From: Caldimicrobium sp.
GTDB lineage: Bacteria; Desulfobacterota; Thermodesulfobacteria; Thermodesulfobacteriales; Thermodesulfobacteriaceae
Direction of reading: 5' to 3'
Length of the DNA: 62,670 nt
Assembly (NCBI GenBank): GCA_009903935.1
Contig: WYEG01000020.1
Coordinates: 1 to 62,670, forward strand
The position numbers were made by a program, and so were the translations under genes. The notes beneath the pieces are model-generated. The model saw only the letters and a list, made by a program, of their open reading frames with translations, was not told the DNA's origin and searched no databases. Below, piece by piece: positions 14,985 through 47,625 of this stretch. Position 1 is the stretch's first letter; each line of letters starts with the position of its first letter.

Positions 14985-16172
14985 CTAAGGTCGGGACTTA
15001 AGCTCGGAGATGGCAGATAAAAAAGGCTCTCTTAGAGCTTTCAGCTTCTCAGCTGGAACGCAGAGAGATAGCCGCACATGATTTGCTTTTCCAAAACCTC
15101 GTCCTGGGACCGCAAGGATACCCCATTTCTTTAAATGCTCGCAGAAGGCGACATCATCCATGTTCACATTCGGAAAGATGAAAAGCCCGCCTTTTGGTCG
15201 CACATAAGAGATGTTTGCCTCATCAAGGATGCTGCATAAGATATCTCGCCTTTCTTGATAGATTTCTACTTTAACTTTTGAGAAAGTGCACTTCATAACA
15301 ATCCGTTGAGCAAGGGCTGGCGCGTTCACAAACCCAAGGATCCTGTTTGCCATGATCATAGCAGAAAGCAAAAGCTCTTTTTCTTCAATTTCAGGATGAA
15401 CGGCAGCAAAGCCTATCCTCTCTCCAGCTAAGCCCAGCTCTTTGGAAAAACTATAGGCAATGATGCTGTTTGAATAGTGCTTTAAGATAGATGGCACAGC
15501 TACACCATCAAAGGTTAGGTTCCGGTATGGTTCATCGGATACAAGATAGATGGTTTTTCCAAACTTTTTGCTTTTTTCTGAGAGGAGCTCTGCCAATCCC
15601 TTTATTTCCTCTTCGCTATATACCTGACCAGTTGGGTTGTTTGGTGAGTTGATGAGCACTATTTTTGTCCTTTCAGTTATAGCTTCCTCAAAAGCAGATA
15701 GGTCAAGGCTAAAATCATTTTTGGTAGAAACTGGTTTAGGGATGCCTTGATGATTTTCGGTATAGAAAAAGTATTCAACAAAAAATGGGGACGGGAAAAG
15801 GACTTCTTCTCCGGGGTTAAGGAGGGCTTTGAAGATGATGTTTAGAGCCCCTGCTGCCCCACAGGTCATAACAACTTCTTTGGCAGAAACTTTTACCCCC
15901 TGCTCAAGGGTCACCTTTTCTGCCATTTTAGCCCGGGCATCCTCAAACCCTGCGTTTGGCATGTAGCGATGGTATTCCGGCTTATAGTTTTCAATCATCT
16001 CTTTCAAAGCAAGATACACCTCTTCTGGCGGAGGAAGGTCTGGATTGCCAAGGGTAAGGTCAAAGACCCTGTCTTCCCCTAATTCTTGTTTGAGCTTTAG
16101 CCCCTCCTCAAACATCTTTCTAATCCAGGAGCTTTTTTCTTGATAGGAAAACATCTGCTTAGATATGGACAT
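14985..16172 (-). CDS. PLP-dependent class I aminotransferase
   Basis: About 395 residues from ATG at 16172, chosen because GGGAGGT lies about 9 bases upstream. The longer frame to 16265 would intrude into the HDAC gene. FDLTLGNPDLPPPEEVY, CGAAGALNIIFKALLNPGEEV, LINSPNNPTGQVYSEEEI and SYSFSKELGLAGERIGF (PLP lysine in SFSKE) place it in the fold-type I aspartate/aromatic aminotransferase superfamily. Substrate specificity cannot be read from the sequence. The stretch SLCVPAEKLK near the end is typical of AspC/AraT-like proteins. Confidence 0.9.
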   Translation of the reverse strand: MSISKQMFSYQEKSSWIRKMFEEGLKLKQELGEDRVFDLTLGNPDLPPPEEVYLALKEMIENYKPEYHRYMPNAGFEDARAKMAEKVTLEQGVKVSAKEVVMTCGAAGALNIIFKALLNPGEEVLFPSPFFVEYFFYTENHQGIPKPVSTKNDFSLDLSAFEEAITERTKIVLINSPNNPTGQVYSEEEIKGLAELLSEKSKKFGKTIYLVSDEPYRNLTFDGVAVPSILKHYSNSIIAYSFSKELGLAGERIGFAAVHPEIEEKELLLSAMIMANRILGFVNAPALAQRIVMKCTFSKVKVEIYQERRDILCSILDEANISYVRPKGGLFIFPNVNMDDVAFCEHLKKWGILAVPGRGFGKANHVRLSLCVPAEKLKALREPFLSAISELKSRP

Positions 16173-16176
16173 TACT

Positions 16177-17223
16177 CTAAACCTCCCAATAGTTTTTAAA
16201 GCGAAGAAGGTCCCTAATTTTGGCAAGGAGCTCTTCGGAATAAGATGAGGGGATGGGATCTTCATCTACATCGACCTTAACAGCTTCAGAAAAGACCTTT
16301 ATCGTCAAAGCTACGCCTTCAGAAAGGTTTGATAGATTGTAGCCTCCTTCAAGGGTAAAGGCGATCTTGCCTTTTGAGGTTTTTTCCGCAATATCCTTCA
16401 AGGTAGCAAGCATCATACCCAATCCTTCAAGAGTTAAGTTTGTGCCCCCTAAAGGATCTCCCCGCAAGCAATCATAGCCCGCAGAAACAAGGATAAGCTG
16501 CGGTTTATACTGAAGAGCTATCGGTTTTAGCAGCTTCTGATAAAAATAGAGAAAATCTCCGTCGTGAGAAGCGCCTTTTAATGGAACATTTATCGTAAAA
16601 CCTCTCGCCGAGCCTCCTCCAATTTCATTGTAGTTTCCAGTGCCTGGGTAGTAGGGATAACGATGGGTTGAGAAGAAGAGAACTTGATGGTCTTCCCAAA
16701 AGATATTCTGTGTCCCGTTGCCATGGTGAAGGTCAAAGTCTACGATCAGGATCCGGTTTAATCTATACAGATTTTTGGCATAGTAGGCGGCAAGGGCAAC
16801 ATTGTTAAAAAGACAAAACCCCATAGCCCGAGCTCTTTCGGCATGATGTCCAGGCGGTCTAACTAAGGAAAAGACCATGTCAAAGCCTTCCTGAAAGAGA
16901 AGCTCTAAAGCCTTTTTCTGAGCGCCAGCAGCATAAAGAGCAGCCTCAAAGGAGTATTCGTTCGTCGCCGTATCACCATCTATGTAGTAAAAAGGTTTCC
17001 CAGCGGTTGATTCTATAAGTGAATAAAGCTCCTCAGTATGAGCCCAGAGTATTTCCTCTTTTTCCGCACGATAGGGCTTAAAAACCTCAAGGTAATCCTT
17101 AACATCCTCCTTTAGCAACCTTTCCCAGATGGCTAAAAGCCGATAAGGACTCTCTGGATGATAGTCTCCAGGGTTGTGTTTTAGATAGATATCATCGTAG
17201 ACCACAGCAACCTTTTTCATCAA
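16177..17223 (-). CDS. Histone deacetylase family protein (AcuC/acetylpolyamine amidohydrolase-like)
   Basis: A 348-residue zinc amidohydrolase with the full arginase/deacetylase active site: RPPGHHAE (His-His dyad), VDFDLHHGNGTQ (zinc Asp and His), SAGYDCLRGDPLGG (zinc Asp) and LEGGYN. Bacterial members remove acetyl or acyl groups from acetyl-CoA synthetase (AcuC), polyamines or other small amines; the true substrate here is unknown. It is the first gene of the run with an aminotransferase, tgt and yajC. A GAGGTG site precedes the ATG pair; the first ATG is used here. Confidence 0.92.
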   Translation of the reverse strand: MMKKVAVVYDDIYLKHNPGDYHPESPYRLLAIWERLLKEDVKDYLEVFKPYRAEKEEILWAHTEELYSLIESTAGKPFYYIDGDTATNEYSFEAALYAAGAQKKALELLFQEGFDMVFSLVRPPGHHAERARAMGFCLFNNVALAAYYAKNLYRLNRILIVDFDLHHGNGTQNIFWEDHQVLFFSTHRYPYYPGTGNYNEIGGGSARGFTINVPLKGASHDGDFLYFYQKLLKPIALQYKPQLILVSAGYDCLRGDPLGGTNLTLEGLGMMLATLKDIAEKTSKGKIAFTLEGGYNLSNLSEGVALTIKVFSEAVKVDVDEDPIPSSYSEELLAKIRDLLRFKNYWEV

Positions 17224-17250
17224 TCTTCACCTCAGTTTAAACTTTTAGGA

Positions 17251-17279
17251 ATTTTAAAATAAAACCGCAGTCGTTGCAA
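17251..17279 (-). promoter_or_regulatory. Promoter of the HDAC-aminotransferase-tgt-yajC run
   Basis: Read on the minus strand: TTGCAA (17274-17279), a 17-base spacer and TAAAAT (17251-17256). The predicted start near 17244 gives a leader of about 20 bases with a GAGGTG ribosome site. The TTGCAA hexamer is its own reverse complement and is also placed exactly as the -35 of the divergent gene. Confidence 0.5.
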
Positions 17280-17302
17280 CAACCTTTTTTGTTTGTTAAT
17301 AT
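17274..17302 (+). promoter_or_regulatory. Promoter of the kinase/ATPase fusion sharing the same -35
   Basis: TTGCAA (17274-17279), a 17-base spacer and TAATAT (17297-17302). The ATG is at 17312, nine bases past the -10, with no Shine-Dalgarno, so the message is probably leaderless or nearly so. The two divergent promoters would compete for, or alternate on, one -35 hexamer. Confidence 0.5.
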
Positions 17303-17311
17303 AGAGTTGAA

Positions 17312-18886
17312 ATGGAAAGCTACCTCTGGCACGAACTTATCACCCAAGAGTCCCTTCCCTTTCCAACAAAAGAATTTAAAGTTCTGCAAACTCATATTTC
17401 CTATGTTTTCATAACCGATGAAATAGTCTACAAAATAAAGAAGCCTGTAAACTTTGGTTTTCTTGATTTTACAACACTGGAGAAGAGAAGGTTCTACTGC
17501 GAGAGGGAGGTTGAATTAAACAAAAGGCTATGCCCGGATATCTATTTGGGCGTAGTTCCCGTGATAAGAAGAGGGGAGCGATTTTTTATAGAAGATGTAG
17601 CTAAGCCTTGGGTTCCCTCAAGAGGCGAAGTCGTTGATTATGCGGTAAAGATGAAGAGGCTCCCAGAAGAGGGGATGATGAAAACTCTTCTCGCAAAAGG
17701 TTCATTAACCCCAAAGCACATAGACTTGATCGTAAATAAGCTTGTCCCTTTTTATCAAACAGCCGAAACTAACGAGGAGATATCAAAATACGGAAGCCTT
17801 GAGGTTGTATCTTACAACATAGAGGAAAATTTCTCTCAAACTAAAGATTTTGTCGGCAAGGCTTTAACTCAAAGAAAATTTGAGACCATTGTTAGCTATT
17901 CAAGAAGGTTTATGAAAGAACATGCTTCTCTTTTTGAAAAGAGGATTAAAGAAGGCTTTATCAGGGATGGTCATGGCGACCTTTATTCGGCAAACATCTG
18001 TTTTGATGACTTAAGGGAGGTTTACATCTTCGATTGCATTGAGTTTAACGAAAGGTTTCGTTGTGGTGATGTTTGCTCGGACCTTGCCTTTCTTGCCATG
18101 GATTTAGATTTTTATAGATTGGAGGAACTTTCAAAATACTTTATCGATGAGTATGTTAAGAGAAGCGGAGATAAAGACCTTTTGCTACTTTTAGATTTTT
18201 ACAAATGCTACCGAGCCTACGTGCGGGGAAAGATCGGATGCTTTACCTCTCAAGACCAAAGCTTAAGCCCTAAGGCAAGGGAAGAAGCCTTAAGCCTTGC
18301 CCAAAGATACTTTGACCTTGCCTTTCGATATGCTGGAGGAATACCTAAGATTTTAGTCTTTATGGGACTTTCTTGCACAGGTAAAACCTACTTAGCAGAA
18401 AGAATGGTTCAAAAGTATCCAGCTGTTTATCTTTCTTCCGATGTTGAGAGAAAAAGGCTTCTTGGTTTAGACCCAGAGAAGCATTACTACGCAGAGTTTG
18501 AACAGGGCATCTATTCTCCTGAGGTATCAGATAAGACTTATGAAGTCTTGGCAGAAAAGGCAAGGATTGAGGTTTCTTACGGACGAGATGTTATAATCGA
18601 TGCTACTTTTCGAAAGAAAAAATGGCGGGATATGCTTTTTTCAGCTTTAAAAGATATTCCTTGCGAAGTTTTCTTTATCTGGTGTGTAGCAGACGATGAG
18701 GTTGTGAAGGAAAGGTTTTCTAAAAGGGCTACGGAAAAGACAGCCTCAGATGCCCTGTTTGAAACCTATCTTCACCAAAAGAAAACCTTTGAACCTCCTG
18801 TTGAAATACCAAACCTTCTCAAAATAGACACCTCATCTGGAAATTCCAACCTTTTAAAAATGATCGAAGAATTTGTAAAACTGTGA
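17312..18886 (+). CDS. Bifunctional aminoglycoside phosphotransferase-like / AAA kinase-like protein
   Basis: A 524-residue protein. Residues 1-335 form an APH-like kinase domain (COG2187 type) with GHGDLYSANIC as the catalytic loop and IFDCIEFNERFRCGDVCSDLAFLAMD as the metal-binding loop. Residues about 343-524 form a P-loop kinase (COG0645 type) with GLSCTGKTYLA as Walker A and VIIDATFRKKKWRD. This architecture recurs in bacteria, but I know of no firmly established substrate; aminoglycoside resistance should not be assumed. It appears to be leaderless and lies divergent from the HDAC-family gene. Confidence 0.85.
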   Translation: MESYLWHELITQESLPFPTKEFKVLQTHISYVFITDEIVYKIKKPVNFGFLDFTTLEKRRFYCEREVELNKRLCPDIYLGVVPVIRRGERFFIEDVAKPWVPSRGEVVDYAVKMKRLPEEGMMKTLLAKGSLTPKHIDLIVNKLVPFYQTAETNEEISKYGSLEVVSYNIEENFSQTKDFVGKALTQRKFETIVSYSRRFMKEHASLFEKRIKEGFIRDGHGDLYSANICFDDLREVYIFDCIEFNERFRCGDVCSDLAFLAMDLDFYRLEELSKYFIDEYVKRSGDKDLLLLLDFYKCYRAYVRGKIGCFTSQDQSLSPKAREEALSLAQRYFDLAFRYAGGIPKILVFMGLSCTGKTYLAERMVQKYPAVYLSSDVERKRLLGLDPEKHYYAEFEQGIYSPEVSDKTYEVLAEKARIEVSYGRDVIIDATFRKKKWRDMLFSALKDIPCEVFFIWCVADDEVVKERFSKRATEKTASDALFETYLHQKKTFEPPVEIPNLLKIDTSSGNSNLLKMIEEFVKL

Positions 18887-18977
18887 ACCCTACCCCCCTT
18901 GTCTTTGAAAAAGTGATGATTATTTTTTGATTGACTTTTAAATTCAAAACAAAAATTCTTCAGGAGGAGGTGGATGT

Positions 18978-20932
<1,955 letters not shown>

Positions 20933-27992: not shown

Positions 27993-29282
<1,290 letters not shown>

Positions 29283-45603: not shown

Positions 45604-47625
45604 TTACCTTAAGGTTACGGCAAGAACTTGTTTTAGCGTAGTCTCTCCTCGTAAAACTTTCAAAATACCATCTTGCTTTAGAGTGATCATGCCTTTTTGC
45701 ATGGCTACTTTTCTGATCTCATTTGCCGGAGCATTTTTAATGATTAAATCTTTAAGATCCTCATCCGGCACAAGTATTTCATGAAGGCCAATCCTACCTT
45801 TAAACCCGGTAAAATTACATTCTTCACATCCAACAGGTTCATAAAAAACCGCTTCTTTTATAAGAGAATCTGATAATGGTTTGACTGGATGTTCTCCGTA
45901 TTCAAACTTAATTCTCTCTATTTCTTCAGGCTTTGGTGTATAAGATCTTTTACAGTATTTGCAGAGCCTTTTAGCAAGCCTCTGAGCTATTATACCAAGA
46001 AGAGAATCAGCAAAGTTGAAAGGGTCAATACCCATTCCAAGAAGCCTTGTTACTGTCTCAGGAGCACTGTTTGTGTGTAGAGTGCTAAGGACTAAATGCC
46101 CGGTCAAAGCAGCCTCAATCAAAGTGTGTGCTGTTTCTTGGTCTCTTGTTTCTCCTATCATGATGATATCAGGGTCTGCTCTCAAAAAAGCTCTTAATAA
46201 GCGGGAGAAAGTTAAACCGATCTTTGGGTTCACCTGGACCTGCCTTAGACCATCCTGAACTATTTCAACAGGGTCTTCTGCTGTCCAGATCTTTTTATTG
46301 GGCTTGTTTAAATATTTTAAGCAGGCATGAAGGGTCGTTGTTTTACCTGAACCGGTTGGTCCTACACAAAGGATTAACCCGTATGGCAGGTCAAGGATAG
46401 ATTTTAACATAGCATAATGGCCGGGCAAAAGGTCAATCTCTTCGAGGGAACGAAACTCTATACCCCCAAGGATCCTCATCACTACATCTTCATTGTTTTC
46501 TATAGTTGGAATGGTTGCAACCCTGATTTCAAAGGTTTGCCCATCTTTGGTCTTAAATTTAATCTTCCCATCCTGAGGGAGTCTTTTTTCTGCAATGTCA
46601 AGACCGGCCATGATCTTAATTCGAGATATGCAACTTCTCTTTTGCGATTCGGGTATTGTCATATAATGGAAACATTCTCCATCAACTCTAAACCTAACCA
46701 GTAATCCTCTTCTACCGGTTAAGCTCTCCCAATGAATATCAGAAGCTCTTCTTCTATAAGCTTCTTCAATAATCTGATTGACAAGTTGGACAACCGCAGA
46801 ATCTAACTCGGGTGCCTCAGCCTCTTCCTTTTCAGTAAGAACCTCCTCTTCTTCAGCCAAAAGGTCAAGTATTCCTTCTTGGTAGTAAGCCTCTATTGCG
46901 CTTAAAATATCTTCCTTAAAAGCAAAGGCAATTTCAACTTCCTCTAAATTAAGAAGTCTTTTAATCCTTTCTACTCTTTCTGGGTCTTTGGGATGGTAGG
47001 TAAATATGTAGACTTTATCTTGATAAACGTATGGAATGGACAAAAGTTCCCTGAAGAAGGAGCTTTTTATGTTTATTACCTCGGGCAATTTTTTTACTTG
47101 GCGCTGAGCTAATAGTCTTTTTAGGTCTAAGGCAGGGATTTTGTAATAATCTTCAATACTTTTTAAAATTTCGACCTTTGGGATACGATATTTTTCAAGG
47201 ATAAAGCTTTCAATACTTTTACCCTGTTCTGCTGCTTCTTCGGCAAGTTGGGTAGCGACTTTAAAATTAAGAGAGATCTTTTCTCTTAATCTTTTAAACT
47301 TTTCTAAATCTTTATAAAAGGTTAATTTTTCTAATATTTGAGTATACTCATCCTTTGGAGTTTCTTTAGAGAGTATTTTATAAATTTTTGTAGCTTTCTC
47401 TATTTCTAAATTTTCGAGTAAAAATTTGCCCAACCATTCTAAAAGCTTAATCCTTTTTTCCCTTGGTAAATCTGGTCTTTGTGAGAATTCTAAAAATTCT
47501 AAAATTAAAAGATTTATGTTTTTTAGTGAAAACCTTTTTTTTATCTCTTCTTCAAGCTGATTTTCAAAGGCTGAAGGATTTTGGAGATACTTTTCGATGA
47601 GCTCAAAAAGTTCTCGGGTGTTCAT
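45604..47625 (-). CDS. pilB: Type IV pilus/type II secretion assembly ATPase
   Basis: A 673-residue hexameric ATPase. An N-terminal helical region of about 130 residues of unknown role precedes a GspE N-terminal/MshEN-like domain (EQGKSIESFILEKYRIPKVEILKSIEDYY). Then come N2 and the core with Walker A VGPTGSGKTTTLHACL, the Asp box, Walker B IMIGETRDQETAHTLIEAALTGH and the tetra-Cys zinc site (CKYCK...CEECNFTGFKGR). It is the only extension ATPase in the window, far from pilMNOPQ. GspE cannot be excluded. It appears leaderless. Confidence 0.9.
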   Translation of the reverse strand: MNTRELFELIEKYLQNPSAFENQLEEEIKKRFSLKNINLLILEFLEFSQRPDLPREKRIKLLEWLGKFLLENLEIEKATKIYKILSKETPKDEYTQILEKLTFYKDLEKFKRLREKISLNFKVATQLAEEAAEQGKSIESFILEKYRIPKVEILKSIEDYYKIPALDLKRLLAQRQVKKLPEVINIKSSFFRELLSIPYVYQDKVYIFTYHPKDPERVERIKRLLNLEEVEIAFAFKEDILSAIEAYYQEGILDLLAEEEEVLTEKEEAEAPELDSAVVQLVNQIIEEAYRRRASDIHWESLTGRRGLLVRFRVDGECFHYMTIPESQKRSCISRIKIMAGLDIAEKRLPQDGKIKFKTKDGQTFEIRVATIPTIENNEDVVMRILGGIEFRSLEEIDLLPGHYAMLKSILDLPYGLILCVGPTGSGKTTTLHACLKYLNKPNKKIWTAEDPVEIVQDGLRQVQVNPKIGLTFSRLLRAFLRADPDIIMIGETRDQETAHTLIEAALTGHLVLSTLHTNSAPETVTRLLGMGIDPFNFADSLLGIIAQRLAKRLCKYCKRSYTPKPEEIERIKFEYGEHPVKPLSDSLIKEAVFYEPVGCEECNFTGFKGRIGLHEILVPDEDLKDLIIKNAPANEIRKVAMQKGMITLKQDGILKVLRGETTLKQVLAVTLR

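Follow-up and report, generated by a model that had tools for sequence, protein, structure and literature searches.

Does the self-complementary hexamer between an HDAC-family deacetylase gene and a divergent kinase-like gene of Caldimicrobium sp. act as a switch between the two, or do two ordinary promoters simply meet there? We addressed this question in a 62,670-nucleotide stretch of contig WYEG01000020.1 (the window, whose positions are used throughout) and in the genomes of related bacteria.

The intergenic region and its flanking genes

The two genes diverge from an intergenic region of 91 bp, with ATG codons at 17220 on the minus strand and at 17312 on the plus strand. Positions 16177-17220 (minus strand) encode a 347-aa protein that matches Pfam Hist_deacetyl (PF00850, 294 bits), bearing out the HDAC label given in the initial annotation, and its Shine-Dalgarno sequence, GAGGT, was read from the sequence at 17229-17233 on the same strand. 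Downstream of HDAC lies the gene of a PLP aminotransferase (14985-16172, minus strand; NF005305, 519 bits), which is a probable operon partner; the pair is kept in loci L113-L120 and L133-L139. If translation began at its first ATG, the aminotransferase ORF would overlap the end of HDAC (16172-16265). Most relatives align with it only from about residue 24-34, so its true start is probably Met32, at 16172. On the other side, positions 17312-18886 (plus strand) encode a 524-aa protein originally described as a kinase/ATPase fusion. An AAA_33 domain is indeed present (PF13671, 98 bits, residues 348-496), but the N-terminal half of the protein has no Pfam match at E<=0.001. Several relatives align with this protein from residue 1, which supports the placement of its start codon.

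The hexamer TTGCAA occupies positions 17274-17279 and, as can be read directly from the sequence, is self-complementary. We take it as the -35 element of the kinase promoter on the plus strand and, most likely, of the HDAC promoter on the minus strand as well. Toward the kinase, a 17-bp spacer (17280-17296) separates it from the -10 element TAATAT (17297-17302), which lies 9 nt 5′ of the ATG and is extended by a TG just upstream (17294-17295). Toward HDAC, a spacer of the same length (17257-17273) leads to TAAAAT (17251-17256, minus strand, reading 17256-17251), 30 nt 5′ of the ATG. The initial annotation had described exactly these 17-base spacers and -10 elements, and its coordinates were confirmed. 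The two -10 elements are 40 bp apart. Judged from their positions, transcription would begin at 17308-17310 on the plus strand, 2-4 nt 5′ of the kinase ATG, and at 17243-17245 on the minus strand, giving HDAC a leader of about 24 nt; the predicted starts (~17309 and ~17244) would be about 65 bp apart. TTGCAA/TAATAT is the sole pair on the plus strand between 17200 and 17330 in which a TTG hexamer stands 15-19 bp from a -10. A promoter scan reported the minus-strand site, with a score of 9/12, and left the plus-strand site, which reaches only 8/12, unreported.

Divergent sigma-70 promoters set back to back in a short intergenic region, so that their -35 regions overlap, are a general bacterial class. 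By its sequence the locus belongs among them, having a -35/-10 pair in each direction and an overlap at the -35; unlike the general case, the -35 hexamers here coincide fully and are self-complementary, and no regulator is known. A narrowly framed literature search on shared or overlapping -35 regions found nothing relevant, which does not show their absence from print. The window holds one other self-complementary -35 candidate that is flanked on both sides by acceptable -10 elements, TTTAAA at 47162, with spacers of 16 and 18 bp.

Each promoter in related genomes

The comparison set comprised 59 relatives (60 genomes with that of Caldimicrobium sp.), all outside its genus and not independent of one another; start codons in them were assigned by rule, as the nearest in-frame ATG or else GTG/TTG. 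The kinase was matched in 47 of the 59 relatives (48/60 with the Caldimicrobium sp. genome) and HDAC in 55 (56/60), and layouts were counted in 29 of the 47 and 29 of the 55, respectively. At the kinase gene, a TTG hexamer 15-18 bp from a -10 that itself lies 4-12 nt from the start codon was present at 15 of 19 loci in relatives of g5 and g6, the two nearest genera among the loci counted (5/6 and 10/13, respectively), as against 3.8-4.2% in shuffles. The 15 layouts all have spacers of 16 or 17 bp and 6-11 nt between the -10 and the ATG, with little or no Shine-Dalgarno sequence. Nine of them have TTGCNN as the -35 hexamer, and one has TTGCAA: L003, the closest kinase relative, which reads TTGCAA-16-TAAGAT-6-ATG. 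The layout is missing from L008, L013, L017, and L021; in L008 and L021 a same-strand ORF overlaps the kinase gene or ends 13 nt upstream of it. The layout is absent from all 10 more distant loci (g3, g4 and family f3), six of which carry a Shine-Dalgarno match 5 nt or longer. Its recurrence among relatives makes the kinase promoter probably real in its own right.

The same holds for HDAC, whose promoter is also probably real on its own conservation. At five of six g5 loci a TTG hexamer and a -10 element 16-18 bp apart were found at 24-33 nt from the HDAC ATG, an arrangement seen in 1-9% of shuffles, and four of the six g5 relatives have TAAAAT as the -10, as here. A pair at 20-35 nt was present at 5 of 14 g6 loci; since a same-strand ORF ends 1-4 nt upstream in several, some of the g6 pairs are likely due to chance. 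No pair was found at nine g3/g4/f3 loci, where HDAC overlaps or closely trails a same-strand ORF. The -35 elements of the g5 HDAC promoters are TTGTTT or TTGCTT, not TTGCAA, and this bears on whether the hexamer is read in both directions. It may be used by the kinase promoter only, with HDAC transcribed from a competing minus-strand pair, TTGTTG-15-TATTTT (17282-17277 / 17261-17256), or from elsewhere, and with the minus-strand reading of TTGCAA a matter of chance. The existence of the competing pair, the g5 hexamers, and the match of TTGCAA to only 4/6 positions of the -35 consensus TTGACA all point this way, but TTGCAA-17-TAAAAT is the better spaced, has the -10 of those four g5 relatives, and stands at a distance from the HDAC ATG that fits the family. 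We regard a kinase-only hexamer as unlikely, though well short of negligible.

Adjacency, symmetry and the proposed switch

The initial annotation interpreted the locus as a compact switch between the deacetylase and the kinase, to be checked by the conservation of its symmetric layout. Were the switch kept as a unit, that layout, or at least the divergent adjacency of the genes, should recur in relatives. In these relatives from other genera it does not. By coordinates, HDAC lies divergently beside the kinase gene in none of the 47 relatives that have both genes, most of which are drafts in which pairs on separate contigs were judged by position only. No HDAC was found in the flanks of the 29 kinase loci inspected, and no relative has a DNA match that spans the HDAC/kinase intergenic region. 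With no divergent pair and no spanning match, the relatives evidently keep the two promoters apart, which is in effect what the initial annotation itself had named as evidence against a conserved switch. In G053, an HDAC paralogue that is more distant (33% identity) sits some 400 bp 5′ of the kinase gene on the same strand; as a single case in 47, it was treated as chance and not as a wider association of the two genes.

Adjacency that occurs in no relative, in a genome that is a 68-contig draft, might also be the product of a misassembly, in which case the shared element would not exist. However, the region 17200-17330 has no second match longer than 22 bp at >90% identity among the matches listed (the best is 21 bp at 95%), so that no repeat is present to cause a misjoin; composition does not change abruptly at the junction, and the start signals on both sides are intact. 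An assembly error is very improbable on these grounds.

The explanation that we favor, and consider likely, is that the 91-bp region holds two ordinary sigma-70-type promoters, back to back, whose overlap at the -35 results from gene order, with no dedicated switch. The kinase promoter would be the nearly leaderless one inherited in its group (TTG, a spacer of 16 or 17 bp, the -10, 6-11 nt, and ATG), and the HDAC-aminotransferase operon would have its usual leadered promoter. A rearrangement in this lineage may have set HDAC upstream of the kinase gene with 40 bp between the -10 elements, a gap at which the two -35 hexamers would fall on one and the same stretch of six bases. The palindrome is best taken as the kinase gene's own -35, with which that of HDAC happens to coincide. 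The overlapping divergent promoter is well defined, and the sharing is probably coincidental. TTGCAA is the sole hexamer that reads TTG first on both strands, so the palindrome is forced whenever divergent -35 elements coincide at this distance, which makes it less surprising. Two ordinary promoters can in this way be brought by gene order into full divergent overlap; because the palindrome follows from the geometry alone, symmetry by itself is no evidence of a switch.

Nevertheless, the symmetric 17/17 layout is rare and would also fit selection. When the 91-bp region was dinucleotide-shuffled 20,000 times, a fraction of 0.00025 gave TTGCAA with acceptable -10 elements at 16-18 bp on both sides, and 0.00135 did so when any of the four self-complementary hexamers scoring 4/6 against TTGACA was counted, although such shuffles ignore the number of intergenic regions open to inspection. 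With TTGCAA fixed in place, acceptable flanking -10 elements arose at a frequency of 0.00875. The exact pattern ANNNTA-17-TTGCAA-17-TANNNT has a single occurrence in the 1.56-Mb genome and eight in 7 of 30 family genomes, that of Caldimicrobium sp. included. The other seven places, all in the 29 remaining genomes, lie away from the kinase and HDAC genes, and three of them fall inside open frames of 222, 233, and 911 codons. The layout is rarer than composition predicts in one region, yet about what a whole-genome survey of intergenic regions could turn up.

The palindrome could instead, or in addition, be an operator, with a dimeric regulator binding the wider dyad GTNGTTGCAACNAC to repress the two promoters. 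The dyad does reach past the hexamer (12 of the 14 positions in GTNGTTGCAACNAC are self-complementary), and its exact pattern is found only here in the genome. Against this, three other places in the genome match with one mismatch each, giving no sign of a regulon; L003 retains TTGCAA with different flanks (CTTGCAAG); and, by a hand estimate, a match at three of the four flanking pairs is unremarkable by chance. An operator is distinctly improbable.

As to exclusion, RNA polymerase would be expected on steric grounds to take one orientation at a time. The mutual exclusion claimed in the initial annotation stands to the extent that two holoenzymes could hardly bind at once, but sharing TTGCAA is not needed for it: divergent promoters with starts about 65 bp apart collide, palindrome or not, given general polymerase footprints. 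The nearest described systems are the bidirectional promoters studied by Warman, Grainger and colleagues, in which, as these reports describe them, symmetry likewise allows polymerase to bind one element in two ways, one event excluding the other (PMC12825309; PMC10268837). In that class it is the -10 that is shared, with starts 7-25 bp apart and most often 18 bp (PMC12825309; PMC10268837), whereas here the -35 is shared, the -10 elements are 40 bp apart, and the predicted starts, at about 65 bp, fall outside the range of the published definition (PMC10268837). According to Warman et al. (2026), who tested five bidirectional promoters of E. coli, transcription at the basal level was too low for competition, and strong activation of one side repressed the opposite transcript (PMC12825309). 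Those promoters share a -10 and not a -35. As competition in E. coli is negligible at basal activity by that account (PMC12825309), HDAC and the kinase gene would probably be transcribed independently at ordinary initiation rates.

An evolved, mutually exclusive switch, in which the shared -35 anti-correlates transcription of the HDAC-aminotransferase operon and the kinase gene and its symmetry was selected, can draw on the exact 17/17 symmetry, its uniqueness in the genome and rarity in shuffles, on two promoters that are each plausible individually, and on the competition that strong activation of one side causes in E. coli. Weighing more heavily are the lack of divergent neighbors in all 47 relatives, the absence of basal-level competition at the five E. 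coli promoters, and L003, which has TTGCAA at its kinase promoter with no HDAC in its flanks and in which the nearest ORF upstream, a 206-aa gene, lies at a distance of 363 bp. We therefore count the compact switch as improbable. Also counted against it is that we know of no functional link between the HDAC and kinase genes. It is conceivable, if hardly probable, that the self-complementary -35 became a regulator-free toggle through a recent rearrangement, such that activating either the leadered HDAC operon or the leaderless kinase gene suppresses the other.

Leaderless transcription and the groESL neighborhood

The kinase promoter raises a point absent from the initial annotation. Its -10 lies within about 4-11 nt of the start codon (9 nt here), a position conserved in relatives, and no strong Shine-Dalgarno sequence is present: the longest match is 3 nt (GAG) and would sit upstream of the predicted start. 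This implies an almost leaderless kinase mRNA, predicted to begin 2-4 nt before the ATG. We surveyed promoter-like pairs at sampled genes with free upstream space (73 in G000 and 65 in G004), using longest-ORF calls from the first ATG, some of which have wrong starts and which include the kinase itself. At 4-11 nt before the ATG, 7 pairs were observed vs. 1.8 in shuffled sequence in G000, and 11 vs. 1.5 in G004; at 24-43 nt, the figures were 14 vs. 2.6 and 12 vs. 4.4. The kinase gene (9 nt) falls in the first group and HDAC (30 nt) in the second. From the enrichment at 4-11 nt in both genomes, leaderless mRNAs would seem to be common in Thermodesulfobacteriaceae. Further examples of such promoters in the window precede the ORFs starting at 27996 (plus strand) and 32397 (minus strand).

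Similar leaderless promoters are described in Deinococcus-Thermus, with a -10 a few bp from the start codon and no need for a Shine-Dalgarno sequence (PMC12340547). Unlike in that account, a TTG -35-like hexamer recurs here at 16-17 bp, the phylum is different, and the starts are predicted only. A narrow literature search, by title and abstract and including PMC10783764, found no report of leaderless promoters in this group. Their presence at many genes of the family, as the upstream sequences indicate, would bear on both start-codon annotation and the prediction of start sites.

Among the loci compared, the nearly leaderless promoter of the kinase gene is distributed much like the linkage of that gene to groES (window 17312-20932). 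That linkage is found in all 20 g1/g5/g6 loci, with groEL also present in all but L010, whose locus is short, and is absent from the 10 g3/g4/f3 loci. No CIRCE-type control element for groESL was found in the window within three mismatches. An RpoH-like sigma factor is encoded at G000:C3:7510-8307, with a score of 283 bits that is under the curated cut-off. Upstream of groES, at 18898-18926 on the plus strand, lies the sequence CTTGTC-N13-TGATTAT, whose spacing is invariant in all 20 kinase-groES loci (Caldimicrobium sp. and 19 g5/g6 relatives) and whose fuller form is matched exactly at a single place in the genome; it looks like a dedicated, highly conserved groESL promoter or heat-shock element.
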